From the IMG/VR virus record IMGVR_UViG_3300049435_000111, positions 1 through 44,590 of that record: 44,590 bases of DNA; one strand, given 5' to 3'. Below, one piece after another: positions 126 through 44,590 of the stretch; position 1 is the stretch's first letter, and every line of letters starts with the position of its first letter. The position numbers and the translations under genes were made by a program. The notes below the pieces were generated by a model. The model was not told where the DNA came from. It saw only the letters and a list, made by a program, of their open reading frames with translations, and did no database searches. This stretch comes from a virus.

Positions 126-261
126 GATCGGCCTGTGGCTGCTCAACGAGATCTGTGAAGCTGATCCGCAGGCTGAGATCGCGATGAAACAGAAGGCGAA
201 TCGTCAGGCGTTTGAGGCGAGTCAAAAGCAAGCCGCCAACCGGCGTCGGCGCCGTTCCTGA
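1..261 (+). CDS. Bbp19-like head protein, 3' part (gene continues from window end)
   Basis: C-terminal part of the gene that starts at 44355. Across the circular join the protein is about 120 residues, acidic and charged at the N-terminus, with a KRQ-to-RRRRR basic tail. The stretch MRDFLWRVLGHCHIF followed by EGKRQIGLWLL is the signature of the Bbp19-like phage domain of BPP-1-type podoviruses, always found beside the portal gene. Its biochemical role is not established; a small head or connector-associated protein is the usual guess. The last 119 bases overlap, antisense, the HTH gene at 143-421. Confidence 0.85.
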   Translation, partial: NALLQDEPMRDFLWRVLGHCHIFQSTYQKNFGDMALLEGKRQIGLWLLNEICEADPQAEIAMKQKANRQAFEASQKQAANRRRRRS

Positions 262-421
262 GCCACTGCGTCAACGCTTCCCGGCTGTACCAGTAGCGCT
301 TGCCTTTCAACGTGCGGGGTGGCCCGACACTGGCGCGATTCCACCGGTTGAGTGTGATGCGACTGATCCCGAGGAACTGCGCGGCTCGGCCGGCTCCCAT
401 CAACTCAGGTGCTTGTGACAT
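143..421 (-). CDS. Small HTH protein, AlpA/excisionase-like, antisense in the head operon
   Basis: A 92-residue protein. Residues 8-55 read as a helix-turn-helix of the MerR/excisionase (HTH_17, AlpA) type: GRAAQFLGISRITLNRW, then a GPPRTLKGKRYWY wing and a REALTQWL helix. Such proteins bind DNA as excisionases or small regulators. The frame is open further upstream (ATG at 463), but homology begins near the ATG at 421. No clear Shine-Dalgarno is visible. It fills the 240-bp gap between the Bbp19-like and scaffold genes on the opposite strand, and its C-terminal third is antisense to the Bbp19-like gene. With no integrase in this genome, a regulatory role is at least as likely as excision. 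Confidence 0.7.
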   Translation of the reverse strand: MSQAPELMGAGRAAQFLGISRITLNRWNRASVGPPRTLKGKRYWYSREALTQWLRNGADAGWRLAFDSPQTPDDSPSVSSRSQPADQLHRSR

Positions 422-4414: not shown

Positions 4415-5107
4415 ATGGCATCGCAAACTGACGTCTATAACCTCGCGCTCACATACCTGGACATCTCCCAGACCGTCCAGAGCGTAAACGATCAAACACC
4501 TGCGGCCGGGGCCTGTAACCGTTGGTATGACTGGGCCCGCAAGAAAGTCCTGGAGCGCGCACACTGGGACTTCGCCACCAAGACGCCCGCGCTCGCCCTG
4601 GTGCTCGATCAAAGCACGCTCCTGCAATCGCAGGTCATCTATCCGGGATGGCGCTACGTCTACGTGCGTCCCGTGGACTGCTTCCGGTTCCTCGGGGTCA
4701 CCACCATGTACGGCCTGCGGACCAATCCCTATCGCGTCTTCTGGTGGTCCTCTGACCAGCCCTTCATTGGCTGGGGCCCGTGGCGCCCGCCCTATCGGGA
4801 AGTGATTGATCAGATCAACACCGCACAGCCCAACAACTCCATCAACATCCTCACAGATCTGGATTCAGCCTATGGGGTGTATGTAACCGATGTGCAGAAC
4901 GTGGGCCTGTGGACCAGCAGCTTCATGGATGCGGTGGCTTGGCAACTCGCCGTCGTCATTGCAGGGCCCTTGTCTGCCAATCAAACCGCCAAAGCCAATG
5001 CGGTGAAGATGATTGACCAATCGATCACCACGGCGCTTGCGATCGGACTGAATGAGCGCCAGAACGATCCTTACCCGGAGTCGCCTGCGATCTCGGCGCG
5101 CAACTGA
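4415..5107 (+). CDS. Tail tubular protein A-like adaptor (T7 gp11-like)
   Basis: A 230-residue protein. The N-terminus TDVYNLALTYLDISQTVQSVND and the ACNRWYDWARKKVLERAHWDFATK segment are typical of the T7 gp11-type head-to-tail adaptor, which forms a ring between portal and tail nozzle. It has a caggagac ribosome-binding site. The next gene, tail tubular B-like, starts inside its stop codon (TGATG), as in many T7-like phages. Confidence 0.85.
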   Translation: MASQTDVYNLALTYLDISQTVQSVNDQTPAAGACNRWYDWARKKVLERAHWDFATKTPALALVLDQSTLLQSQVIYPGWRYVYVRPVDCFRFLGVTTMYGLRTNPYRVFWWSSDQPFIGWGPWRPPYREVIDQINTAQPNNSINILTDLDSAYGVYVTDVQNVGLWTSSFMDAVAWQLAVVIAGPLSANQTAKANAVKMIDQSITTALAIGLNERQNDPYPESPAISARN

Positions 5108-11097: not shown

Positions 11098-13007
11098 ACG
11101 CCGTCGTCAGTCCTTTCCCACAGGAAGAGCGCGCGCAGACCGACCGTGCGGAAGGAATGTGGGACCCGTGGAAAGGGCCAACGCCCGGCTCTTTCGGCGG
11201 CGATGTCATTCGCTCGCCCTACACGCTTCTGGAGGGGTTGGGCTCCGGTGCTGCCAAGGGGCAGGCGGTCCTCGGCGGATTGCTGCACACGCAAATGTCC
11301 CCGGACACCGCGCAGATGGCATCCGAAGGCTTGAGCCCGGATGCGATTGCCCGTGCCAAGAGCCAGGCCGATGAGATGCAACAACACGGCGCGGATGCCT
11401 TTATGGCAGACGCCCGTGAGCGCGTCAAAGCCCTGACTCCGGATGCAGCGACCACGGGCACGGCCACTCAGGTGCTGCACAGCGTGGCCTCGGGAGCCGA
11501 GCAACTGATCCTGGGCTCACTGTCAGGCGTTCCCGGGGGCGGTGCGCTCGCGGTGGGTTCTGGCGAGGGTGTGAGTCGCTACCAAGATCTCAAAGAGCAG
11601 GGCGTCGATAGCGGTACGGCGAGAGCATCGGCCGCCGTCACGGCCATCACCGCTGGCGCGGGCGCGCTCGTTCCGGCCGCCTATGGATCCAGCCTCGCCA
11701 CACGATTGCTGACCGGCGCAGGCAGTAACACTGCATTCGGCATGGTCAACCGCGGCGCAGATCATCTGATTCTACAGGCCGGGGGCTATCAAGAGATGGC
11801 CGACCAACAGAAGGTGTGGGACGGAACTCAGATGCTGGTGGATGCCGCACTGGGCGCCACCTTCGGTGCTGTTCATCACGCTTCCACCCCGGCGGAAGCC
11901 AAGGTGGTCGAGGCCCTCAAGCAGAACCGCGATGCCGCCCTGACAGCCAATCTGGCGCTCAAGGACCGGGCCGCGGCGCCGGGTATACCTATCAACCCCG
12001 AATCCGCCAGTGTCCATGCAGCCGCCTTGGAGAAGGCCACACAAGATGTGCTGCAGGGTAAGCCCATCGACGTGGCTGACAGTGGCATCGACCAGGCGGC
12101 GTTCCTGGAGCGACCTGCGCCGGATGACCGGCCGCCCATGGAGGTGATGGCGGCGGCGTTGAAGGAGTCGGGCTTCCTGGACGAGGAGGCGAACCTGCGC
12201 GATCTCGAGGCGCAGTTTGAACGGCGCATGGGCGGCGAGACCGAACGCCGATCAGACAGCGGCCGTCGACAGACTGTCAACGATATGTCACCTGAGCAGC
12301 TGCGTCAGGAACTGCTCACCCACGAGCTCACGGGCATTCCCAACCGGCGCGCCTATGCGGAGAGCGACAAGCTGCCCGCGCAGGTCTCCGTGGATGTCGA
12401 TTCGCTCAAATGGGTGAACGACAACTTAGGCCACGAAGCCGGCGATCAGATGCTGAAGACGGTGGCCGCCTCGCTCGCCAAGCACACTCCTGAGGCCTAT
12501 CACGTCTCCGGCGATGAGTTCATTGCCCAGGCGCGCACCCCGGAAGAAGCGCACGCGACGATGGCGCAGGTGACCCAGCACCTGAAAGACCACGTGATGG
12601 AAGTCACGATGCCCGATGGATCGGTGCGAAAGATCCAGGGACTGGGTGTATCCTACGGCGTAGGTAAAGATCTGCATGAAGCCGACACCGCACTCCAAGT
12701 CCACAAAGCCACCCGAGAAGCAGCCGGCCACCGCGCCGCCCGTGGCGAAGTCCCCCCTGGAGCAGTTGAAGGAAGCGGTGAGCCAGGGCGGCAAGCTGAC
12801 GCGAATCGTCCCGCCGGAGGATCAGGACCCGCAGGTGTAGGAGACCCGGTCACTCAGGCCTTAGCCGAGCGACCCAACCTCAAGATTCCCACCGAGGACG
12901 GCCAGACCGTCAAAGCTTCGGACGCGCTCGAAGCCGCCCAATCCAAAGACGATTGGACCACCGCTGTTAAAGCGGCCGTCAATTGTTTCAGCCGGCGGGG
13001 TGGCTAA
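11094..13007 (+). CDS. Ejection protein with a GGDEF-like (diguanylate-cyclase) domain
   Basis: A 637-residue protein. Residues 1-390 are Ala/Gly-rich with several hydrophobic glycine-rich stretches (about 37-60, 120-160, 175-215), as in membrane-inserting ejection proteins, then an ASVHAAALEKATQDVLQGKP segment typical of such proteins. Residues about 405-560 form a GGDEF domain: ELTGIPNRR (411-419), SVDVDSLKWVNDNLGHEAGD (432-451), SGDEF (472-476) and ADTALQVHKATREAAG. The metal-binding aspartates and NDxxGHxxGD motif are intact. The first Gly of the signature is Ser, a change also found in active cyclases. The inhibitory RxxD site is absent (KHTP there). It lies between two ejection-protein genes, coupled by 4-base overlaps, so it is probably packaged and delivered to the host; whether it makes a nucleotide is unknown. 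Confidence 0.8.
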   Translation: MNAVVSPFPQEERAQTDRAEGMWDPWKGPTPGSFGGDVIRSPYTLLEGLGSGAAKGQAVLGGLLHTQMSPDTAQMASEGLSPDAIARAKSQADEMQQHGADAFMADARERVKALTPDAATTGTATQVLHSVASGAEQLILGSLSGVPGGGALAVGSGEGVSRYQDLKEQGVDSGTARASAAVTAITAGAGALVPAAYGSSLATRLLTGAGSNTAFGMVNRGADHLILQAGGYQEMADQQKVWDGTQMLVDAALGATFGAVHHASTPAEAKVVEALKQNRDAALTANLALKDRAAAPGIPINPESASVHAAALEKATQDVLQGKPIDVADSGIDQAAFLERPAPDDRPPMEVMAAALKESGFLDEEANLRDLEAQFERRMGGETERRSDSGRRQTVNDMSPEQLRQELLTHELTGIPNRRAYAESDKLPAQVSVDVDSLKWVNDNLGHEAGDQMLKTVAASLAKHTPEAYHVSGDEFIAQARTPEEAHATMAQVTQHLKDHVMEVTMPDGSVRKIQGLGVSYGVGKDLHEADTALQVHKATREAAGHRAARGEVPPGAVEGSGEPGRQADANRPAGGSGPAGVGDPVTQALAERPNLKIPTEDGQTVKASDALEAAQSKDDWTTAVKAAVNCFSRRGG

Positions 13008-28344: not shown

Positions 28345-28728
28345 TTACTTGAGGGCGATCGGCCAGGCTTCGGGGGAGGGCTGATCCTCGAACTTGTCTC
28401 GCTCGGCTTCGAGGTGCGACACAGCGGACTTCAGAGCGGCGTTCTCGCGCCGGTAGGTCCCCAAGGTGGCCCCCATCATCTGCAAGGAGCGGACGTGCCC
28501 GGGAGTGGCTTTCCAGCCTTCGGGGCTGATCAGCTGTCCCCGGGAGATGGTCCAGCCGCGCCAGGCTGGATCCAGCATGCCGAGGTCTCCCAGCAGCAGC
28601 ATTTCGGCGGATTTGGGCGGACGACTTGCCCCGCGTTTCCAGCGGCGCGCGGTCGCCAGATCCACCCCACAGATGCGCGCTATCTCGCTGGCGAGAATAC
28701 CATAATGGGCGTCGTTCGGATGCGACAT
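28345..28728 (-). CDS. DUF3653-like phage regulator (HTH)
   Basis: A 127-residue protein from the ATG at 28728. Residues about 10-40 form a helix-turn-helix (LASEIARICGVDLATARRWK, RGASRPPKSAEMLLL); then the family's AWRGWTISRGQLISPEGWKA and PGHVRSLQMMGATLG segments, and a C-terminal coil (YRRENAALKSAVSHLEAERD). This matches the DUF3653-type phage regulatory family. It is preceded by 85 bases of non-coding DNA with CATAAA/TTTATG half-sites, which also occur after terL, so it may control late genes and itself. Confidence 0.72.
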   Translation of the reverse strand: MSHPNDAHYGILASEIARICGVDLATARRWKRGASRPPKSAEMLLLGDLGMLDPAWRGWTISRGQLISPEGWKATPGHVRSLQMMGATLGTYRRENAALKSAVSHLEAERDKFEDQPSPEAWPIALK

Positions 28729-28764
28729 GGACCCCACGATAACAAGGTCCAGTTGCGCATAATA

Positions 28765-28785
28765 CATAAAAAGTCGACATTTATG
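28765..28785. promoter_or_regulatory. Candidate operator: CATAAA-N9-TTTATG
   Basis: An inverted repeat with 6-base arms (CATAAA at 28765-28770 and TTTATG at 28780-28785) around a spacer holding GTCGAC. Another half-site, CGCATAA, lies at 28756-28762. It lies about 40 bases before the DUF3653-like gene. The half-site equals the core of the repeats at 40355-40450. Confidence 0.5.
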
Positions 28786-28813: not shown

Positions 28814-29068
28814 TTATTCTTGTTTCTGGATTATGCCACGTGCCGCGTCGCTGCGGGCAGATTGCCTGCGCGGCAACTTCTCCAAACCAAACTTTGCGCG
28901 TTGTTTTCTCAACACACGATAGACCGTGGTGACCGACACGCCGGCCTGAATCGCGCAATATTTGATGCTGGCGCCTGCCTCGCGGTTTTGGCGGATTTCG
29001 AACTCCGCACGCGCAGTGAGTTTGGGAGGGCGGCCGAGGGTCTCATAGACGTCGCGGAACTCGCTCAC
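28814..29068 (-). CDS. Small HTH protein (resolvase/transposase-type HTH)
   Basis: An 84-residue protein with a GTG start that overlaps the previous stop. GRPPKLTARAEFEIRQNREA followed by GASIKYCAIQAGVSVTTVYR and VLRKQR is the DNA-binding helix-turn-helix seen in resolvases and small phage regulators, with the AT-hook-like GRPPK in front. No catalytic domain is attached. Probably a DNA-binding regulator. Confidence 0.7.
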   Translation of the reverse strand: MSEFRDVYETLGRPPKLTARAEFEIRQNREAGASIKYCAIQAGVSVTTVYRVLRKQRAKFGLEKLPRRQSARSDAARGIIQKQE

Positions 29069-32649: not shown

Positions 32650-32678
32650 AAAGTACAGCAAGCTATACAGACAGTCAA
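32650..32678 (-). promoter_or_regulatory. Predicted PL promoter
   Basis: On the minus strand, TTGACT (32678-32673) and TACTTT (32655-32650) are separated by 17 bases, a good sigma-70 match. It points to the left operon beginning at 32554, leaving about a 90-base leader. The two operator sites lie on the -35 and -10 boxes. The 260 bases between the operon start and the repressor gene hold nothing else I can identify. Confidence 0.75.
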
Positions 32679-32690
32679 GCATGCTGTACT
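32652..32690. promoter_or_regulatory. oL: two repressor operators
   Basis: Site 1 at 32652-32669 and site 2 at 32673-32690 match the palindrome AGTACAGCATGCTGTACT at 15 and 16 of 18 positions. Their centres are 21 bp apart, two helical turns, as for cooperative dimers. They cover the PL promoter boxes. Confidence 0.75.
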
Positions 32691-32814
32691 CGAAAAGCGC
32701 GACGATGCGCCGCAGGACGTAAGTCCTAGGTCAATGAGCGCAAGGGATTAGAAGAACAGGGGCCTAAAATGAGGCAGAGACTGGAGACGTTTAGCGTGGA
32801 AAACGTGACCTGGG

Positions 32815-33078
32815 TCAGGTTCCCGTATCGCCACGAGCTCGAAGGGTCTTCTTGGAACCGGCGCCGGGGCCTCGGCTTTCGCCCCAGACCAGGTAGTGGA
32901 GGTCTGTATTCAAGACCTCGAGCACGCGGGCGACCGTAGGAAGCTTCAAGTTCTTCGAGCTTCCGTCTTCCCATTGCGATACGGCGCTTTTCGTCACGCC
33001 GACGAGCTTTGCGAATTCGGGTTGCGTCAAGCCGCGGGCTATTCGTAGTCGTCGGATTCTATCGCCCATGGTTTCCAT
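32815..33078 (-). CDS. cI: CI-like repressor (XRE-type HTH)
   Basis: An 87-residue protein starting at METMGDRIRRL (33078). The helix-turn-helix LTQPEFAKLVGVTKSAVSQW is textbook XRE/Cro-CI. GSSKNLKLPTVARVLEVLNT and YLVWGES follow, ending in a short basic tail. There is no peptidase domain, so RecA-driven self-cleavage is not expected; induction would need an antirepressor or another signal. It diverges from the Cro-like gene at 33150. Predicted TATGCT lies 7 bases before the ATG, suggesting a leaderless transcript. Confidence 0.85.
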   Translation of the reverse strand: METMGDRIRRLRIARGLTQPEFAKLVGVTKSAVSQWEDGSSKNLKLPTVARVLEVLNTDLHYLVWGESRGPGAGSKKTLRARGDTGT

Positions 33079-33100
33079 GCATCCAGCATAAGAAACCTCG

Positions 33101-33142
33101 GGAACAGCATCCTTGACCTCAAGGTTTAACATGCTGTACTTT
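33101..33142 (+). promoter_or_regulatory. oR and predicted PR promoter
   Basis: TTGACC at 33113-33118 and TACTTT at 33137-33142 (18-base spacer) form PR, pointing to cro. Two operator-like sites lie on it: 33101-33118 (12 of 18) and 33123-33140 (14 of 18) against AGTACAGCATGCTGTACT. The predicted start is at about 33149-33150, on the cro ATG. A weak minus-strand TATGCT near 33085 could serve the repressor. Confidence 0.7.
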
Positions 33143-33149
33143 GCTGGAC

Positions 33150-33374
33150 ATGTACAAGGCCGTCGTTCTCGCGCATTTCAATGACTCACAGACAGCCGTC
33201 GCGAACGCGATTGGCCTGACCAAGAGCGCCGTCAATCAATGGCCTGACGTCGTGCCGCTCAAAAGCGCAATCAAGCTTCAAGCAGCTACCCATGGGGCTC
33301 TAGCGCTGGACATGGCGGTCTACGAGCTTCCTGCATTACCGAGTCGACCCGCGTCTCGTCGGGCGGCTGTGTAG
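33150..33374 (+). CDS. cro: Cro-like protein (P22 Cro type)
   Basis: A 74-residue protein, starting at the ATG at 33150. MYKAVVLAHFNDSQTAVANA then IGLTKSAVNQWPDVVPLKSA is the P22-Cro pattern (helix, HTH with KSAVNQW, then VVPxxxA). It binds the same operators and represses the repressor promoter. Its ATG lies almost on the predicted PR start, so it may be translated from a leaderless mRNA. A TTG at 33141 is an alternative. Confidence 0.85.
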   Translation: MYKAVVLAHFNDSQTAVANAIGLTKSAVNQWPDVVPLKSAIKLQAATHGALALDMAVYELPALPSRPASRRAAV

Positions 33375-33391: not shown

Positions 33392-33478
33392 ATGTCATGG
33401 CGCAGCGGTCTGTGCGGCGCGATGCAACTTATGTTGGCTCATGGGCCAATTGACCGCTCACTCAGGAGCGGCTCTTGA
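33392..33478 (+). CDS. Microprotein between cro and the initiator (28 aa)
   Basis: A 28-codon frame, MSWRSGLCGAMQLMLAHGPI then DRSLRSGS. Its stop overlaps the TTG start of the replication gene (TTGA), the same coupling used elsewhere in this genome. Upstream ggtggtga is a weak ribosome site. It sits where lambdoid phages keep a cII-like gene, but it is far too short to be one. Could be a leader that couples translation. Confidence 0.4.
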   Translation: MSWRSGLCGAMQLMLAHGPIDRSLRSGS

Positions 33479-34170
33479 GCGGCTGGATCAAAGTCGAGAA
33501 GGATCTGGTAAACGACCCACGGGTGCTCCGTATGGCGTCACGCTTGCGTCACGCTGACGTCACGCTCGGGTCACGCAGCCGTCTCGTAGTAGTCGGTGCA
33601 CTCGTCACGCTGTGGTGGTACGCAGACACGCACATCCGCGATGACGACACGCTTCCCGTGGGTGCTGATCAGATAAATGAGCTCGTCGGGATCGACGGTT
33701 TCTGCGATCTCATGCCATCGGAGTGGTTTGAGGTCCTCGACGCGAATAGCGTGAAACTGGTTGATTACACGGCTCATAACGGTACCACGGCGAAGAAAAG
33801 GGCCCTCGGCCAGCGACGCAAGGAACGGTCCCGCAGTCGTCACGCTGACGTCACGCTCGGGTCACGCTCGCGTCGCTCCAACAGCGTGACCAGACCTAGA
33901 CCTAGATTAGACCAAGAGAAGAAAGAAGAGGGGGAGTGCGCGATTGCGGGACTCGATCTCGAAGCTTGGAGCCGATTCGAGACCTACCGTCGAGAGATCC
34001 GCAAACCCATCAAGCCCGCATCCGTCCTCGCGTCTCAGAAAAAACTGGCGGCCTTTGGGGCTGCTCAGCCGGCCGTTGTTGAGCAATCCATCGCGAACGG
34101 ATGGCAGGGGCTATTCGAGCTCAAACCTCCAAACGGCACCGCGCCGAAAGAGAAATCCGAATGGATGTAG
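33475..34170 (+). CDS. Replication initiator (lambda O-like) containing origin iterons
   Basis: A 231-residue protein. TTG start at 33475 with aggag upstream. N-terminus MSGWIKVEKDLVNDPRVLRM and WWYADTHIRDDDTLPVGADQ look like phage DNA-replication initiators of the O/DnaT group (winged-helix N-terminus). The C-terminal part (LDLEAWSRFETYRREIRKPI) is helical, likely for helicase loading. Two copies of a RHADVTLGSRSR peptide (residues about 25-36 and 122-133) are encoded by the GTCACGC iteron arrays, so the protein sequence is shaped by the origin. The following genes are primase-like and helicase. Confidence 0.75.
   Translation: MSGWIKVEKDLVNDPRVLRMASRLRHADVTLGSRSRLVVVGALVTLWWYADTHIRDDDTLPVGADQINELVGIDGFCDLMPSEWFEVLDANSVKLVDYTAHNGTTAKKRALGQRRKERSRSRHADVTLGSRSRRSNSVTRPRPRLDQEKKEEGECAIAGLDLEAWSRFETYRREIRKPIKPASVLASQKKLAAFGAAQPAVVEQSIANGWQGLFELKPPNGTAPKEKSEWM
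33537..33610 (+). repeat. Origin iterons, cluster 1
   Basis: GTCACGC at 33537, 33548, 33559 and 33570, exactly 11 bp apart, and again at 33604. They lie inside the initiator gene, as lambda iterons lie inside O. A 30-bp stretch here (33547-33576) is repeated exactly in cluster 2 at 33838-33867. Confidence 0.8.
33839..33890 (+). repeat. Origin iterons, cluster 2, with adjacent A-rich tract
   Basis: GTCACGC at 33839, 33850 and 33861, 11 bp apart, a degenerate copy at 33872 and an inverted copy (GCGTGAC) at 33884. Immediately after comes agacctagacctagattag and an A/G-rich tract to about 33935, a candidate unwinding element. Together with cluster 1 this is the likely replication origin. Confidence 0.75.
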
Positions 34171-35792: not shown

Positions 35793-36187
35793 TGCCGCGC
35801 AAGCTCACCGAGGAAATGCTGGCGCGCCAATTGCGGCTGGATTTCGCGGCCGTGGAACATCGGCCGATGCTGGCTCGAAAAGCGGCCAATAACCCTGTCT
35901 TTTCAGAAGTTTTGCGTCGCGTCCGCCAGGTCCGTGGAACACTCGATCTCGAGTATCTCACAGACCACGTTCAGGACCTCGATCGCCAGCGATTGCTGGA
36001 GCCGACGTCGCTCCCGAAGGAACTGCGCGGGTATAAGCGCCGACCCCGACCGAAGACCGCCATCATTGCGCTGGCTGCCAAAGCTGCGTACGAGCGTCGC
36101 ATCCATACGGCCGAAGTGGTGCGCAACTTTCTGGGCCAGCATGCCGCGAAACTGCGCCGGCTCGCCGATCGGTTGCGCGCCACGTGA
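35789..36187 (+). CDS. Basic helical protein, unknown
   Basis: A 132-residue protein, beginning MMPRKLTEEMLARQLRLDF. Rich in Arg and Lys (RVRQVRGTLDLEYL, GYKRRPRPKTAIIALAAKA). ATGA overlap with the nuclease gene. The MMPRK start is shared with the next gene. A transcription-antitermination or nucleic-acid-binding role is plausible but not shown. Confidence 0.6.
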   Translation: MMPRKLTEEMLARQLRLDFAAVEHRPMLARKAANNPVFSEVLRRVRQVRGTLDLEYLTDHVQDLDRQRLLEPTSLPKELRGYKRRPRPKTAIIALAAKAAYERRIHTAEVVRNFLGQHAAKLRRLADRLRAT

Positions 36188-36366
36188 TGCCGCGCAAATC
36201 CACCGAAGCGGTTCTCACGCGCATCCGTGAGGTGGAGATGGCTCGCCGTGCCATTCCAACACGCGCTCAACTGGCCAAAGAGCTCGGACTCAGCGAGAGC
36301 ATGGTGAACAAGATTGCCTCCAAAATGACAGTTGGTGTCAATGATTTAATTATGGCCAAGCCGTAA
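36184..36366 (+). CDS. Small HTH protein
   Basis: A 60-residue protein, MMPRKSTEAVLTRIREVEMA then RAIPTRAQLAKELGLSESMV and NKIASKM. Residues 26-45 are a helix-turn-helix. ATGA overlap with the gene before it. It may regulate or mark the end of the replication operon. Confidence 0.65.
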   Translation: MMPRKSTEAVLTRIREVEMARRAIPTRAQLAKELGLSESMVNKIASKMTVGVNDLIMAKP

Positions 36367-37992: not shown

Positions 37993-38021
37993 GCCCGCTT
38001 ATACCCAAAACAAGCTTGACC

Positions 38022-38297
38022 ATGAGTGACGCCCGTCGCAAAGCCCGCCAACTGAAGATCGTCGCCGCCGGGATGCGCATCGCCGAACGCTTAGGACATC
38101 AGGATCCCGGTGAGGCGGTGAGTGAAATCCGCATTGCAGCCCTGGCCGCAGTGGCCGAATCCCGCGCCGTGTGGGCGTTTCTCAAAGACACAGGCTTCGC
38201 CACCGAAACGCAGTACCAGGACTACCTGGACAAAGGCTACGACTCCGTGACTGCGCAAGTTGAGGGGAAAGCCGCGGAGATCCTGGTCCATGGCTGA
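38022..38297 (+). CDS. Small soluble protein, unknown
   Basis: A 91-residue helical protein: MSDARRKARQLKIVAAGMRI then QDPGEAVSEIRIAALAAVAE. It is just before a small gene and the terminase pair, and overlaps the next start. Possibly packaging related by position only. Confidence 0.6.
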   Translation: MSDARRKARQLKIVAAGMRIAERLGHQDPGEAVSEIRIAALAAVAESRAVWAFLKDTGFATETQYQDYLDKGYDSVTAQVEGKAAEILVHG

Positions 38298-38646
38298 CAA
38301 ACTCACGAGCGCTCAGGAGAACCTGATGCGCCTGATCAACGACAAGGGCATCGCCCAGATGGTGGGCTCCACGTTGGCTGAGATTGCCGTCGAGCTCATG
38401 GACGCCAAACAGGAAGCCGCTCACTGGAAGCAATCCTTCGAGACCGTCAAGGATGAGATCAAGGTGCTCGCCGGCGTCGCACTGCGACAGCAGCACACGC
38501 ACCGCCTCGTGATCACGAAAGCCGAGCTGCAGAACATGCCTGCGAACACGGAACTGCATGTGGCTACGCCTGAGCCTGGGGTGCGCGTATACGAACTACG
38601 CCAGCGGATCCCGAGCGCGGTGAGCCCTCTCCACGGGCCTAATTGA
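38290..38646 (+). CDS. Small protein, unknown
   Basis: A 118-residue protein from the ATG at 38290. Helical N-terminal half (SAQENLMRLINDKGIAQMVG, LAEIAVELMDAKQEAAHWKQ) and beta C-terminal half (HRLVITKAELQNMPANTELH). Located directly before the small terminase. Function unknown. Confidence 0.6.
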   Translation: MADKLTSAQENLMRLINDKGIAQMVGSTLAEIAVELMDAKQEAAHWKQSFETVKDEIKVLAGVALRQQHTHRLVITKAELQNMPANTELHVATPEPGVRVYELRQRIPSAVSPLHGPN

Positions 38647-38672
38647 ACGATCGCTCAATGCGATGAACTGCC

Positions 38673-38915
38673 ATGGCAAAAGGTAAGAAAACAGGTGGCG
38701 GATCGCGTAAAGGTTCACCGAACAAGGTCACCACCGAGGTACGTGAAGCCATCCAGCAGGCCTTCACGGATCTGGGCGGCGCGAAGTATCTGGTGCAGGT
38801 GGGTACGGACAACCCGTCCGCCTTCTGCAAGCTGCTGGGCATGACGCTGCCCAAAGACGTCAAGCTCGATGTGGGTGAGACCCTCGAACAACTGCTGCTG
38901 CGAGCGATGAAGTGA
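38673..38915 (+). CDS. Terminase small subunit-like protein
   Basis: An 80-residue protein. The start MAKGKKTGGGSRKGSPNKVT is the basic GGxRKGSPNK motif typical of phage small-terminase proteins of the DUF5681-like group, followed by a helical part (TEVREAIQQAFTDLGGAKYL). It directly precedes terL. Role: recognises the packaging site and loads the large subunit. Confidence 0.75.
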   Translation: MAKGKKTGGGSRKGSPNKVTTEVREAIQQAFTDLGGAKYLVQVGTDNPSAFCKLLGMTLPKDVKLDVGETLEQLLLRAMK

Positions 38916-40354
38916 GCCAACTCGCCGTCGATAAGCTCCGCACCTACCGCGAACACCCGGTCGTGATGGTGCGTGAGCTGTTCGCCATCGAGCCGGATGA
39001 GTGGCAGATCCAGGTCCTCGAGGAGTTCCCGCACAATCCCCGACAAGCCATGGCCTGCTGTAAGGGGCCCGGTAAGACCGCGGTGCTTGCCTGGCTGGGC
39101 TGGAACTTCCTGCTCACCCGCCTGCATCCCAAGATTGGTGCGGTCTCCATCACCGGTTCCAACCTCGACGACAACCTGTGGCCTGAGATGGCGAAGTGGA
39201 TGAAGAAATCCCCGCTCCTCAGCCAGCAGTTTGAGTGGACGAGCGAATCGATCTTCCTCAAGGCGCATCCGGAAACCTGGTTCATGACCCGCAAGGCCTG
39301 GAAGCCCAGCGCCAACGAGGATGAGCTCGGCCAGACGCTCGCAGGCCTGTGGGCCGACTACGTGCTCTTCCTGATCGATGAGGCTGGCGGTATCCCGATC
39401 GCCATCCTGCGCACCGCAGAAGCCGCCCTGCAGCGCGAAGGCACCGAAGGCCACATCGTGATGGCCGGCAACACCACGAGCACCACCGGCTGTCTGTACG
39501 AGGCGATCGTCACGAGACGCCACCTGTGGCAGTCCTATGAGGTCACGGCCGACCCGGACGACCCGAAGCGCACACCGCGCATCTCCATTGAGTACGCCCG
39601 CCAGCAGATCACGGAATACGGCCGGGATAATCCCTGGGTGATGATCAACATCCTGGCGAAGTTCCCCAGCCAGGGCGTCAACCACCTGATCAGCGCGGAT
39701 GAAGTGCGCGGCTGCATCGGACGCCATCTGCACCCGAACGCCTATGAGTGGGCGCCGAAGATATTGGGCGGCGATGTGGCTGATTTCGGCGACGATCGCA
39801 CCGTATTATTCCCCCGCCAAGGACCTGTGTACTTCGCCCCGCTGATCCTCAGGAAGATGGATCCGGTGCAAATAGCGGGGCACTGGATGGAGAAAGCATC
39901 CGGGTGGAATGCAGACTCAATTCAGGTGGATGCCACGGGCGGCTATGGCACCGGTCCCATCGCGATCATGCGCGACCAGGGCTACAGCGTGCTGCCGATC
40001 CAGTTCAGTGAGACGGCGCTCAATCCGAAGTTCTTCAACAAGAGAGCTGAGATCTGGTGGAACGCCTGCGAGCACATCAAGCAGGGCGCCTCCCTGCCTC
40101 AAGGCTGTGACGAGCTCGTCGCTGAACTCGCCAGCGCCACGTACAGCTACAAGGGCGACCGGATCATCATCGAGGATAAGAAGCTCATGAAAGCCCGTCT
40201 GGGCCGCAGTCCGGATCTCGCAGATGCGCTGTGCTGCACCCATGCGTATCCGGTGAATACCACTCGCGGCACGCGCGAGGCGCTGTTCCCGTTCGACCTG
40301 GAGCGTGTGGTGAGCCGCAGCAAATGTGACTACGACCCATTGACCCGAGATTGA
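38912..40354 (+). CDS. terL: Terminase large subunit
   Basis: A 480-residue protein. Walker A-like CCKGPGKT (residues 49-56), Walker B VLFLIDEAG (151-159) and the coupling motif VMAGNTTSTTG show the packaging ATPase. The C-terminal nuclease domain begins with GGDVADFGDDRTVLF, with further acidic residues in SIQVDATGGYG and SPDLADALCC. It translocates and cuts DNA at the portal. GTG start in a 4-base overlap with the small subunit. Confidence 0.92.
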   Translation: MSQLAVDKLRTYREHPVVMVRELFAIEPDEWQIQVLEEFPHNPRQAMACCKGPGKTAVLAWLGWNFLLTRLHPKIGAVSITGSNLDDNLWPEMAKWMKKSPLLSQQFEWTSESIFLKAHPETWFMTRKAWKPSANEDELGQTLAGLWADYVLFLIDEAGGIPIAILRTAEAALQREGTEGHIVMAGNTTSTTGCLYEAIVTRRHLWQSYEVTADPDDPKRTPRISIEYARQQITEYGRDNPWVMINILAKFPSQGVNHLISADEVRGCIGRHLHPNAYEWAPKILGGDVADFGDDRTVLFPRQGPVYFAPLILRKMDPVQIAGHWMEKASGWNADSIQVDATGGYGTGPIAIMRDQGYSVLPIQFSETALNPKFFNKRAEIWWNACEHIKQGASLPQGCDELVAELASATYSYKGDRIIIEDKKLMKARLGRSPDLADALCCTHAYPVNTTRGTREALFPFDLERVVSRSKCDYDPLTRD

Positions 40355-40450
40355 TTTATGCGCCATTTATGCGAGGTTAATGCACCGTTTATGCAAAAAG
40401 TGTCCGAAAACGCCGAGCTGATACTTTCGATTCACGCATAGGACGCATAG
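40355..40450 (+). repeat. Phased TTTATGC repeats upstream of a predicted late promoter
   Basis: TTTATGCG at 40355 and 40366, TTAATGCA at 40377 and TTTATGCA at 40388 lie exactly 11 bp apart. Inverted CGCATA copies lie at 40435 and 40445. Between them is a TACTTT box at 40422-40427 with no good -35. The direct repeats would sit at about -79 to -39 from the transcription start, where an activator would bind. This is probably a regulated promoter for the head genes; a pac site is an alternative. Confidence 0.65.
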
Positions 40451-40455
40451 AAGCA

Positions 40456-40605
40456 ATGGCTCTCTTCGGCATCACCACCACGAAACCCAAAGAAGGCCCG
40501 CTGGTCGCCTTCGCCAAGAAGCTGCGCACGCTCGCACCCAAGCTCATCAAACCCGACTCCTCACGCGCTGACCGGCTCTACGGCAGCAAAGGCAAGCAGT
40601 CATGA
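40456..40605 (+). CDS. Small basic protein (49 aa)
   Basis: A 49-residue protein: MALFGITTTKPKEGPLVAFA then KKLRTLAPKLIKPDSSRADR. Basic and Pro-rich. First gene after the repeat cluster; its stop overlaps the next start (ATGA). Confidence 0.6.
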   Translation: MALFGITTTKPKEGPLVAFAKKLRTLAPKLIKPDSSRADRLYGSKGKQS

Positions 40606-41147
40606 CATCCATTCGCGGCACTCCCTACATCAAGCTCGGGGGCCAGTCCGGCCAGTCCGCCGCCAAGCCCGCAGGCTACACCGGCACGCAAGGCCCGCAG
40701 TACGGCCGGGACATCATCGACACCCGCGGACAGGGTGGCACGCCGTATCAAAGTACGAATGGCAATCCGGCTGATGCGCGCCGGGTGGTCTCGGCTGATC
40801 TGTACGGCAAGGTGATGAGTGGTTCTCAGGGCAATGCCAACGATCCGAGCAATACCGGCAGTGGGGTGCTGCTGGACTCAGTCTCCAGTGACTACGAAGA
40901 CCCCACGATCCAGCCCTCCATGGACTCACCGGTGCCGGGCAATGCCCCGATGTATCAGACGAGCGATATCACGAGTGTGAACCAGGCGCGTCTGGGCTCG
41001 AACATGTCCCCTGCGCATGCGAAGGATGATCTGCTGGCCCTCGGGGGTGTGATGAGCCGTGGCATGGAAGGCATCGACAAATCCACGGACACAGAGGACA
41101 AGCTCACGCGTGATGACACCTTGCCAGGCGTGGCACCGCGGCGGTGA
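40602..41147 (+). CDS. Virion-operon protein, unknown
   Basis: A 181-residue Gly/Ser-rich, low-order protein (GGQSGQSAAKPAGYTGTQGP, NDPSNTGSGVLLDSVSS) ending in a helical stretch. It lies between terL and portal, where BPP-1-like phages keep small head proteins. No motif. Confidence 0.6.
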   Translation: MTSIRGTPYIKLGGQSGQSAAKPAGYTGTQGPQYGRDIIDTRGQGGTPYQSTNGNPADARRVVSADLYGKVMSGSQGNANDPSNTGSGVLLDSVSSDYEDPTIQPSMDSPVPGNAPMYQTSDITSVNQARLGSNMSPAHAKDDLLALGGVMSRGMEGIDKSTDTEDKLTRDDTLPGVAPRR

Positions 41148-41599
41148 CGCAGTTCGCACGCGAGAGCGTGGAACAGGTGGTGGAGGAGATACAGCCGCTG
41201 CTCACAGAGCATTGGGCTGAGATTGCGCAGTATCCGGACATCGCGCTGAACCCGGACTTCGCCTACTACCGTGCGGCCGAAGCCGCCGGCCAGCTGCGCA
41301 TCTACACCGCGCGCCATTCCAGTCATGCGCTGATCGGCTACGCGATCTACCTCTTGGCACCGGCGCTGCATTACCAGCAGAGTCTGCAAGCCAAGCAGGA
41401 TGTGTTGTACATCAGTGAGCCGCATCGGTTGGGACGGGTGGGTTGGCGGCTGATTCAGTTTGCTGACGAACAGCTGAAAGCCACAGGCGTGCAGCTGGTG
41501 TATCAGCACCAGAAGGTGGCTCATCCCGCATTGGGCCGTGTGCTCGAGCGGCTGGGCTATGTGCAGTCGGATGTCCTGTGGGCTAGGAGATTGGACTGA
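41144..41599 (+). CDS. GNAT-type acetyltransferase
   Basis: A 151-residue protein, GTG start overlapping the previous stop. It has the GNAT outline: TEHWAEIAQYPDIALNPDF, beta strands (LRIYTARHSSHALIGYAIYL), then a coenzyme-A-loop-like region SEPHRLGRVGWRLIQFADEQ and LVYQHQKVAHPALGRVLERL followed by GY. Phages often carry one in the packaging block; it may modify a virion or host protein. Confidence 0.78.
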   Translation: MTQFARESVEQVVEEIQPLLTEHWAEIAQYPDIALNPDFAYYRAAEAAGQLRIYTARHSSHALIGYAIYLLAPALHYQQSLQAKQDVLYISEPHRLGRVGWRLIQFADEQLKATGVQLVYQHQKVAHPALGRVLERLGYVQSDVLWARRLD

Positions 41600-42207
41600 T
41601 GGGCGTCTCACTGGCAGCTGCGGCTACTTACGTGGGGAGCTTTTTCACGGCTGCAGGCACGACGGCCGCTGCTTCTACAGCCGCGACGACGGCGGCCACG
41701 GCTGCAACCACGGCGACGGCCGCGACCGCCGCGGGAACGGCAGCAGCTGCCGGTGGGGCTGCTGTAGCCGGGGAAGCCGCCCTGGATACCGTCGTGATCG
41801 GGGCGGCCGCAGGCGGCGCGGGTGCAGGGGCTGCGGGCACGGCTGCGGCACTGGGGGGGGCTGCCGCGGCGGGAGCCGGAACGGCGGCAGCCACCGCAAG
41901 TGGTGGCACGGGCACACAAGCCGGAGCCGCCAAGCACAGCATTGCCACTACGATCTCGGAGGCCTCGGCTGTGGCGTCCGGCGCTTCCGCGTTGTATTCG
42001 CTCGCCGCCGGTCCGGGTCGCTTGAATGTGCCGCCAGCACCGGGAGGATCCCAGGTTGATCAAACCGCCCTTGCAGCCGACCAGGCCCAGAAGCAGCGCG
42101 AGATGGCCGCGGGCGGATTGCAGGGCACGACGGGTACGGCCGGGGGCAATCAGGGTGCGGTGTTGAATCCCGGCACATTGGCGAAAGCGAGTTTGCTCGG
42201 TGGGTGA
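41599..42207 (+). CDS. Alanine-rich low-complexity virion-operon protein
   Basis: A 202-residue protein in which residues about 20-115 are almost only Ala, Gly and Thr (STAATTAATAATTATAATAA is representative). The ends are more ordinary (SIATTISEASAVASGASALY, then QKQREMAAGGLQGT). It resembles Ala-rich internal head proteins in podoviruses; a membrane-interacting or DNA-side role is possible. Codon use is high in GCN; the frame is real, because start and stop overlap the neighbours in the operon pattern. Confidence 0.6.
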   Translation: MGVSLAAAATYVGSFFTAAGTTAAASTAATTAATAATTATAATAAGTAAAAGGAAVAGEAALDTVVIGAAAGGAGAGAAGTAAALGGAAAAGAGTAAATASGGTGTQAGAAKHSIATTISEASAVASGASALYSLAAGPGRLNVPPAPGGSQVDQTALAADQAQKQREMAAGGLQGTTGTAGGNQGAVLNPGTLAKASLLGG

Positions 42208-42379
42208 AATCACTGAGTTGAATCAGTTCCGTCCGAAGCGTCCCGAGATGATCTGGGAGTGCCAGTGTGGCGGCCAGCACTTCTACCTGAACAACGATGG
42301 CACGATCGAGTGCCGAAGCTGCAAGCTGATCAACGAGCACATTGAGTGGGTGTTTCGTGATGGGCAGGGTCCGAAGTGA
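42200..42379 (+). CDS. Small zinc-ribbon protein (59 aa)
   Basis: A 59-residue protein. IWECQCGGQHFYLNNDGTIE then CRSCKLINEHIEWVF is a zinc ribbon (CxC, CxxC). It starts 8 bases inside the previous gene (GTG at 42200) and overlaps the portal start (GTGA). Present beside portal in related phages; function unknown. Confidence 0.65.
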   Translation: MGEITELNQFRPKRPEMIWECQCGGQHFYLNNDGTIECRSCKLINEHIEWVFRDGQGPK

Positions 42380-44358
42380 GCGACATTGATTTAAACAGCC
42401 CTTCCAGTGGCGAGCTGATCGACTCCGCTCCCGCGGTCCGTGACGGTAGCAAGGGCGCTCGCAATGCCCGTCGAGTGCAGGGGGATAACTACGGGGGCAA
42501 GAAGAACGGCAAACAGGTTGGCGCCGGACTCACCACCCCGATCGAACAGCCACCCAAGACGCGCTACGAGGTCAGACGCAACTATCTGAACCTGGACAGG
42601 GAGACCTGGCGCAGTCACTGGCTGGATGTGAAAAACCTGTTCCTACCCTATCGCACGCGCTGGCTGGATGATGGCGGAGTGCCGAACCGCGGCCAGAAGA
42701 AGATGCAGTACATCGTGGACAACTGTCCGATGTTGGCACTGCGCACCATGTCCGCAGGCTTGATGGCCGGCATGACATCACCCTCACGGCCGTGGTTTCG
42801 CCTGAAGCCCGATGATGATGACATCTATGCGAAGCCGGGAGTCGCGGAGTGGTGTGAGAAGGCCACGGATGCCGTGCACAAGATCCTGGCGAAATCCAAC
42901 TTCTATCGCGCGATGCCCACGTTCTACAGTGAGATCGGCGCTTTTGGGACAGCAGCACTCGGTATCTACGAGGTGCCACACGATCCGTCCAAGCGACACC
43001 AGTCGGTCATCAACTGCATTGCCTACACGGCCGGTGAGTACTGGTGCGCGCAGAACGATGAAGGCGTGGTGGATACGTTCTATCGCAAGTACAAATGGAC
43101 CGTGCGACAGATCGTGGACAAGTTCGTGGACGATCCAGCGAACCCGGATGATCCGGGCTGGGACAACATCCAACCCTCCACGAAGTCTCTGTGGCGTGCC
43201 CGCAAGTGGGATACGTGGATCGATATCGTGCACGTGATGGAGCCGAACGATGCCTGGGAAGCAGGCGCTCTGGGTACGAAGGGAATGCCCACGCGTAGCG
43301 TGTACTACGAGATGGGCGGCTCACCCAACCTGCTGCTGGGCGTAAAGGGCTTCCCGAACAAACCCGTCAAGGTCGCGCGTTGGGATACCAACTCGGATTC
43401 CGTCTACGGGCACAGTCCGGCGATGTATTGCTTAGGCGATGCCAAGCAGTTGATGGTCCAGCAGAAGCGAAAGATGCAGGGTATCGACAAGCAGATGGAC
43501 CCGCCGCTCATTGGCGACTCGGCCATCAAGCGCAGCACGGTCAGTCAGCTTCCGGGTGACATCACGTGGCTCGAGACCACCAGTGCCACGACGTTCGGCC
43601 TGAAGCCGTTGTACGAGGTGAAGCCGGACCTGCAGTACATGATCGCGGATCTGGAGGAGACCCGTAAACGCATCCGGGCCGGTATGTACGAGGATGTCTT
43701 CCAGATGATGCGCAGTCTGGACGACACGCTCAAAGCCGGCATTACCGCGACCGAGATCAACGCCCGCAAGCAGGAACAGCTGCTGGAGCTCGGCCCGCTC
43801 TTGGATCGGCTCACGGGAGAGGTGTTTGAGCCTGCGATCGAGGACACGTTTGACCTTGCGGTGAAGCGCAGCAAGCTTTCCTGGCAGTACGAGATGAACA
43901 ACATCTCACCGCCGCCGGGACTGGAGAAGTTCCTCCCGCCGCCGCCGAAAGCGCTGCAGGGGGTGAAGCTCAAGATCGACTACATCTCGATTCTCGCTCA
44001 AGCCGTGCGTGTCGCCGAAGTTCAGGGCATCAACCAGGTCACGCAGTACGTGCTGCAGCTGGTAGAGGCGAAGCCGGATGTACTGGATAAGATCAACTTC
44101 GACAAGGCGGTGGAGATCCTGTCTGAGCGTACCGGTGTGCCGCCGGAGATGATTGTCAGTGACGAGGTCGTGAAACAGATTCGCCAGCAGCGTCAGCAGG
44201 CTCAACAGCAGGCACAGCAGCAGCAGGCATCGAATGAGAAGATGATGGCTGCGAGTCAGGCGGCGAAGAATCTGGGTCAAGCCCCCGTGGGCGGAAGTAA
44301 TGCGCTCGATCAGTTGCTGAACGGGCAGGGCGGTGGCAACGCGCAGGAAGCTGCGTGA
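42376..44358 (+). CDS. Portal / head-tail connector (T7-like)
   Basis: A 660-residue protein. Core features of the T7-type head-tail connector family are present: YEVRRNYLNLDRETWRSHWL, NCPMLALRTMSAGLMAGMTS, PSRPWFRL, SEIGAFGTAALGIYEVP, TATEINARKQEQLLELGPLL and a C-terminal Gln-rich region (RQQRQQAQQQAQQQQA). Forms the dodecameric portal through which DNA is packaged and ejected. GTG start overlapping the previous stop (GTGA). Confidence 0.9.
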   Translation: MSDIDLNSPSSGELIDSAPAVRDGSKGARNARRVQGDNYGGKKNGKQVGAGLTTPIEQPPKTRYEVRRNYLNLDRETWRSHWLDVKNLFLPYRTRWLDDGGVPNRGQKKMQYIVDNCPMLALRTMSAGLMAGMTSPSRPWFRLKPDDDDIYAKPGVAEWCEKATDAVHKILAKSNFYRAMPTFYSEIGAFGTAALGIYEVPHDPSKRHQSVINCIAYTAGEYWCAQNDEGVVDTFYRKYKWTVRQIVDKFVDDPANPDDPGWDNIQPSTKSLWRARKWDTWIDIVHVMEPNDAWEAGALGTKGMPTRSVYYEMGGSPNLLLGVKGFPNKPVKVARWDTNSDSVYGHSPAMYCLGDAKQLMVQQKRKMQGIDKQMDPPLIGDSAIKRSTVSQLPGDITWLETTSATTFGLKPLYEVKPDLQYMIADLEETRKRIRAGMYEDVFQMMRSLDDTLKAGITATEINARKQEQLLELGPLLDRLTGEVFEPAIEDTFDLAVKRSKLSWQYEMNNISPPPGLEKFLPPPPKALQGVKLKIDYISILAQAVRVAEVQGINQVTQYVLQLVEAKPDVLDKINFDKAVEILSERTGVPPEMIVSDEVVKQIRQQRQQAQQQAQQQQASNEKMMAASQAAKNLGQAPVGGSNALDQLLNGQGGGNAQEAA

Positions 44359-44590
44359 TCGAAGAAGAGAATCCCGACGCGCTCGATCTGGAGGCTGCAC
44401 AAAGTCAGGTCCAGAAGACGCGCCTCCTCGAGGAGATGGACCGGGACGGCGAGATCGCACAGCTGAATGCGCTGCTGCAGGATGAGCCGATGCGCGACTT
44501 CCTGTGGCGCGTGTTGGGTCACTGTCACATCTTCCAGTCCACGTATCAGAAGAACTTCGGGGATATGGCGCTGCTCGAGGGCAAGCGCCA
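44355..44590 (+). CDS. Bbp19-like head protein, 5' part (continues at window start)
   Basis: Starts with a GTG at 44355 that overlaps the portal stop (GTGA). The first residues are acidic (EEENPDALDLEAAQSQVQKT) and lead directly into the domain whose C-terminal part lies at 1-261. The frame is continuous across the circular join, which supports the closure. Confidence 0.85.
   Translation, partial: MIEEENPDALDLEAAQSQVQKTRLLEEMDRDGEIAQLNALLQDEPMRDFLWRVLGHCHIFQSTYQKNFGDMALLEGKR
44466..44590. repeat. Terminal direct repeat, right copy
   Basis: Exact copy of bases 1-125. Joining the two copies restores the open reading frame that begins at 44355 and ends at 261. Confidence 0.95.

Follow-up and report, generated by a model that had tools for sequence, protein, structure and literature searches.

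Here, we found that the large terminase gene of a virus is followed directly by four in-phase heptamers, to which most probably a protein binds that activates an internal late promoter. The window, i.e. the whole stretch of 44,590 nucleotides that we analysed (IMG/VR record IMGVR_UViG_3300049435_000111), carries this array on the plus strand at 40355-40398, where the units TTTATGC-GCCA, TTTATGC-GAGG, TTAATGC-ACCG and TTTATGC-AAAA start at 40355, 40366, 40377 and 40388, the third heptamer being a variant. These coordinates, the pitch of exactly 11 bp and the position after terL had been claimed in an earlier sequence-only reading and proved accurate on re-reading; indeed, the array begins at the base following the terL stop codon. 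Since the four spacers are all unlike and the heptamer alone is kept across the units, a recent tandem duplication is not the origin of the array, and the pattern points rather to selection for binding. The motif TTWATGC-N4-TTWATGC occurs three times in the window, always within the array, with zero occurrences expected from shuffles. We then looked in simulated sequences for four heptamers in phase, allowing a single mismatch. Neither 20,000 composition-matched simulations of the 101-bp gap, checked at all periods of 7-24, nor 60 simulations of the whole window produced such an array. The TTTATGC array occurs once in the genome, with no second copy of the site, and TTATGC is not enriched outside the array (window count 8 vs 11 expected).

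The window ends in an exact copy of its start (125 bp, 1-125 and 44466-44590), and this terminal direct repeat marks the record, though it is classed as linear, as a complete circular genome of 44,465 bp; the overlap falls in a coding region and reflects assembly. The head and tail genes are podovirus-like, the named phages with the most similar TerL (47% identity) are those of the Xanthomonas CP2/SAC group, and the early module encodes an XRE repressor, a P22-Cro-like protein, a replication initiator, a CHC2 zinc-finger protein and a DnaB-like helicase. Words of the GTACAGCA/TGCTGTAC type, probable operators recognised by eye, are repeated at 32652-32692 and 33103-33160, flanking the XRE repressor gene. 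No integrase match was found in the complete genome, and the longest ORFs in the interval from the tail genes to the repressor are unlike one, so that integrase arm-type sites were rejected. The array itself lies in an intergenic gap of 101 bp (40355-40455) with ~43% GC vs ~60% around it. Upstream are a probable terS of 80 aa (38673-38915, plus strand; phrog_11043) and, directly after it, terL (38912-40354, plus strand; phrog_2, E=1.5e-25), whose stop codon abuts the array. The end of the last 11-bp unit is separated by 57 bp from the next start codon, that of a 49-aa ORF (40456-40605, plus strand), after which the head genes follow, including portal and capsid. A small HTH_17/excisionase-like regulator gene (143-421, minus strand) runs against the head operon, with portal-side genes on one side of it and scaffold-side genes on the other.

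How could such an array act on transcription? The sequence-only reading had placed a TACTTT box with a poor -35 at 40422. The box is there, with no -35 present, but the overlapping hexamer GATACT (40420-40425, plus strand) is the better -10. Indeed, if a hexamer has to match TATAAT at four or more positions, among them the A at position 2 and the T at position 6, GATACT (4/6) is the only such hexamer in 40301-40456 when both strands are checked, the minus strand of this interval yielding no -10. It has no -35 at 16-18 bp (the best one matches 1/6), a combination that could be chance, and a promoter scan of 38000-42400 detected no promoter. With the predicted transcription start taken near 40432, the array would span about -77 to -34. 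An activator-dependent internal promoter is the best reading of this arrangement, as a candidate to which we give an even chance; against it stand the weak -10, the lack of conservation of the array in relatives, the single site in the genome, the negative search for an activator, an orientation opposite to that in clostridial-type phages, and the many TTWATGC arrays elsewhere that are plain tandem repeats. The activator-dependent late promoter proposed earlier is thus supported in part, by a layout like that of phage TP901-1 and of five clostridial-type contigs, but it would be a promoter internal to the head operon, given that both terminase genes precede the array.

We propose that the four heptamers, which their phasing puts on one face of the helix, would be bound cooperatively by an HTH-type protein of the phage or the host, and that the bound protein would recruit RNA polymerase to GATACT, a -10 without a -35. 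The outcome would be an activator-dependent internal promoter transcribing towards and driving the downstream head genes, beginning with the 49-aa gene and including portal and capsid. An inverted pair of TATGCGT copies at a distance of 9 bp (40434-40450, minus strand) lies over the presumed transcription start and the ribosome-binding region and might allow feedback repression or looping; both members of this CGCATA pair are present, the first at 40435 as reported, the second at 40444 and not at 40445. Of the 13 TATGCG sites in the genome, 4 fall in the gap after terL, and the inverted copies are able to pair with repeats 1 and 2 of the array. An RNA structure at the gap was rejected, as its fold is no better than that of shuffles (z 0.40 and 0.42), and an Rfam search gave no match at the array site. 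A coding repeat was likewise rejected, the 11-bp period being out of frame, and a 27-aa ORF (40358-40441), which covers most of the gap and was read by eye, is unsupported.

Which protein might bind the heptamers? The two HTH proteins put forward earlier, at 28345-28767 (then given as 28345-28728) and 28814-29068, both on the minus strand, turned out not to be special candidates: the first has a homologue in a relative, G001, which is without the array, and neither found a match in 29 records with TTWATGC arrays, in searches that had no positive control. Among the ORFs tested we recognised no protein of the Ltr/RinA/Alt type and no match to phrog_36, phrog_248 or phrog_2198. One possible binder, named here speculatively, is a small HTH protein of 60 aa (36184-36366, plus strand), which is encoded ahead of the late region and was not found in G001. 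Other HTH proteins of the genome are encoded at 143-421 and 32815-33132 (minus strand) and at 33141-33374 (plus strand).

At the late promoter of TP901-1, four imperfect direct repeats between -76 and -32 are reported to be bound by the Alt protein; four such repeats are the general target of late regulators in Alt's group, and deleting the repeats abolished a late promoter of phage Phi13 (PMC13123087). In the TP901-1 DNA, four 11-bp units start at 12993, 13004, 13015 and 13026 and are followed by TATACT, a register that we read from the TP901-1 sequence and not from the original Alt papers. TATACT lies 35 bp from the start of the last unit and 68 bp from that of the first, and GATACT lies 32 and 65 bp away, so that both sites join four imperfect 11-bp direct repeats to a -10 at nearly equal distance. 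However, the repeat sequence differs, the TP901-1 host is Gram-positive, and alt lies there directly upstream of a promoter located before terS, whereas our site follows terL with no activator identified. The promoters of Ltr/RinA/ArpU late regulators, including P23 of Phi13, likewise carry direct repeats upstream of a -10 in the packaging/head region, although the Phi13 repeats are 18 bp and no Ltr-type protein was recognised here. Measured against the Ltr/RinA/Alt type, the site has the array of about four direct repeats upstream of a -10-like hexamer, but the gene directly upstream is terL and not an Ltr-family gene, and the site lies after terL and not before terS. As neither the adjacent regulator gene nor the pre-terS position was found, we do not count the site in this family, although by analogy it may work like an Alt/Ltr-type late promoter; it belongs to the broader kind of direct-repeat activator or operator arrays at phage promoters. 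If confirmed, a Gram-positive phage promoter design, in which a four-repeat activator array replaces the -35, would extend to a relative of Xanthomonas phages, and the site would be an example of such an element gained inside a packaging operon. The design, an activator array at a late promoter, is already known, the protein and the promoter are putative here, and the array taken alone is an ordinary type of element in a new place.

Does the heptamer recur beside promoters elsewhere? A scan of viral contigs gave 24 TTWATGC arrays vs 7 for the reversed control (3.4 times commoner), and a scan of genomes gave 105. These arrays are heterogeneous, many of them plain perfect tandem repeats, with no common context, and the -10 hexamers around all of them show no single preferred distance. 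In a variable-gap scan of TTTATGC triplets, 11 and 22 bp were the commonest spacings other than multiples of three among the matches listed, in which tandem repeats dominate, so that these spacings carry little weight. Two contigs of 3-5 kb from the MAG Gammaproteobacteria Glo_16 (L229 and L259) hold 11 and 14 TTAATGC-type 11-bp arrays, a satellite-like expansion.

In the five clostridial-type contigs (L009, L013, L015/L296, L024 and L029), 3-5 copies of GCATWAA at 11 bp precede a strong -10, TATAAT or TACAAT, and the distance from the start of the last heptamer to the -10 is constant at 25-26 bp. The gene before the array encodes a transcription regulator in L009, L015 and L024 (families phrog_36 and phrog_248), and L024 and L029 have an identical promoter downstream, yet the repeats read GCATTAA in one and GCATAAA in the other. 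Our site shares with these contigs the heptamer as its reverse complement, the 11-bp period and a nearby -10; it differs in orientation, since GCATWAA reads towards the -10 there and TTTATGC does so here, and in that their -10 is closer and their regulator gene adjacent.

In three Pseudomonas prophages (L306, L290 and L028), TTTATGC is found three times at 11 bp just upstream of an XRE repressor gene, with unchanged heptamers and diverged spacers. Heptamer, orientation, period and the divergence of the spacers are as in the window, and a further likeness lies in additional TATGC copies near the start, again at a distance of 9 bp, but the prophage arrays adjoin the repressor gene and have a candidate -35 (TTGTCT) 10 bp past the array. 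Arrays with this heptamer and pitch do occur, then, beside sequences that look like promoters in phages. The prophage sites lend weight to one of the two main alternatives, namely that heptamers and inverted copies are operators for a negative regulator that, during lysogeny or early in infection, would silence an accessory gene or a promoter inside the operon. The genome encodes an XRE repressor and a Cro-like gene, and the inverted copies overlap the expected start site. However, the repeats around the window's own repressor and cro genes are, by eye, of the GTACAGCA/TGCTGTAC type and not TTTATGC, and the array lies mostly upstream of -35, where activators usually sit; altogether we consider the operator explanation rather improbable. 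A long shot is the wider view that TTTATGC/GCATWAA at 11-bp pitch might be a recurrent regulatory word in unrelated Gram-positive and Gram-negative phages, recognised by an activator fold that they share or have converged on, and transplanted here into the middle of the head operon as a new internal late promoter.

The relatives of the window, gathered by TerL in two scans (65-78% identity to the window TerL), allow the junction after terL to be compared. L142, L143, L144 and L148 (65-77%) are gapless, the start of the following gene lying -4 to +3 bp from the terL stop, whereas in L146 and L147 (68%) the gap measures 71 bp and its sequence is unrelated and free of repeats. The small gene after terL has 71-92 aa in L142-L144 and is shortened to 49 aa in the window and to 43 aa in L146 and L147; the late genes are otherwise collinear. 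As an unrelated gap occupies the same junction in L146, this junction has gained sequence at least twice. The L146 gap, after a terL stop at 4440, contains TTGACA. The array was absent from all relatives fetched, including the 44.8-kb genome behind L146, as were the GTCACGC arrays described below, and a similarity search with the gap sequence in phages and plasmids gave chance matches only. Since the relatives are either gapless or have the repeat-free 71-bp gap, the array is, on this comparison, a lineage-specific addition and not a conserved packaging element.

These comparisons bear on two further explanations. The other main alternative is that the array has no current function and is a remnant, or chance AT-rich filler, from a recombination event that would have shortened the small gene: the gap is confined to this lineage, gapless relatives have a longer version of the gene after it, and TTWATGC-type arrays are scattered over unrelated genomes. 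We regard this as improbable, given that the heptamers were kept while the spacers diverged and that 20,000 simulations did not yield the array. A packaging initiation (pac) site recognised by TerS, the second possibility raised in the sequence-only reading, is disfavoured and in our view very unlikely. The array does adjoin terL, and the records of near-identical Xanthomonas phages with a related TerL begin at different points, possibly because their genomes are permuted and packaged by the headful. To our knowledge, however, pac sites lie in or beside terS and not after terL, whereas this array begins 1.7 kb downstream of the terS start; nor is it conserved with TerS, being absent from all TerL relatives examined, and L148, which has a 49% identical TerS but no array, speaks against a pac function.

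Direct repeats of 11 bp are typical of iterons, and the array might accordingly be a replication or maintenance element, a second site for the initiator or for a partition-like protein. The initiator gene of this genome (ORF 33475-34170, phrog_2509) contains 11-bp arrays of GTCACGC on the plus strand, four copies at 33537-33576 and three at 33839-33867, which share the 7+4 architecture. Yet the array heptamer differs from GTCACGC at 3/7 positions, the initiator gene is 7 kb away and no partition protein was found among the ORFs tested, so that we hold this explanation to be quite unlikely and retain the activator-dependent internal promoter as the preferred reading. In a viral scan, GTCACGC was found three times at 11 bp in 55 contigs, in many of them within the linker of initiator-like genes, and GTAACGC clusters lie at similar gene positions in the homologues from Rac (ydaU), PAN70, Olaya, SAC, ST11-OXA245phi3.2 and ctnlZ23. 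These repeats look like intragenic origin iterons common to unrelated phages.
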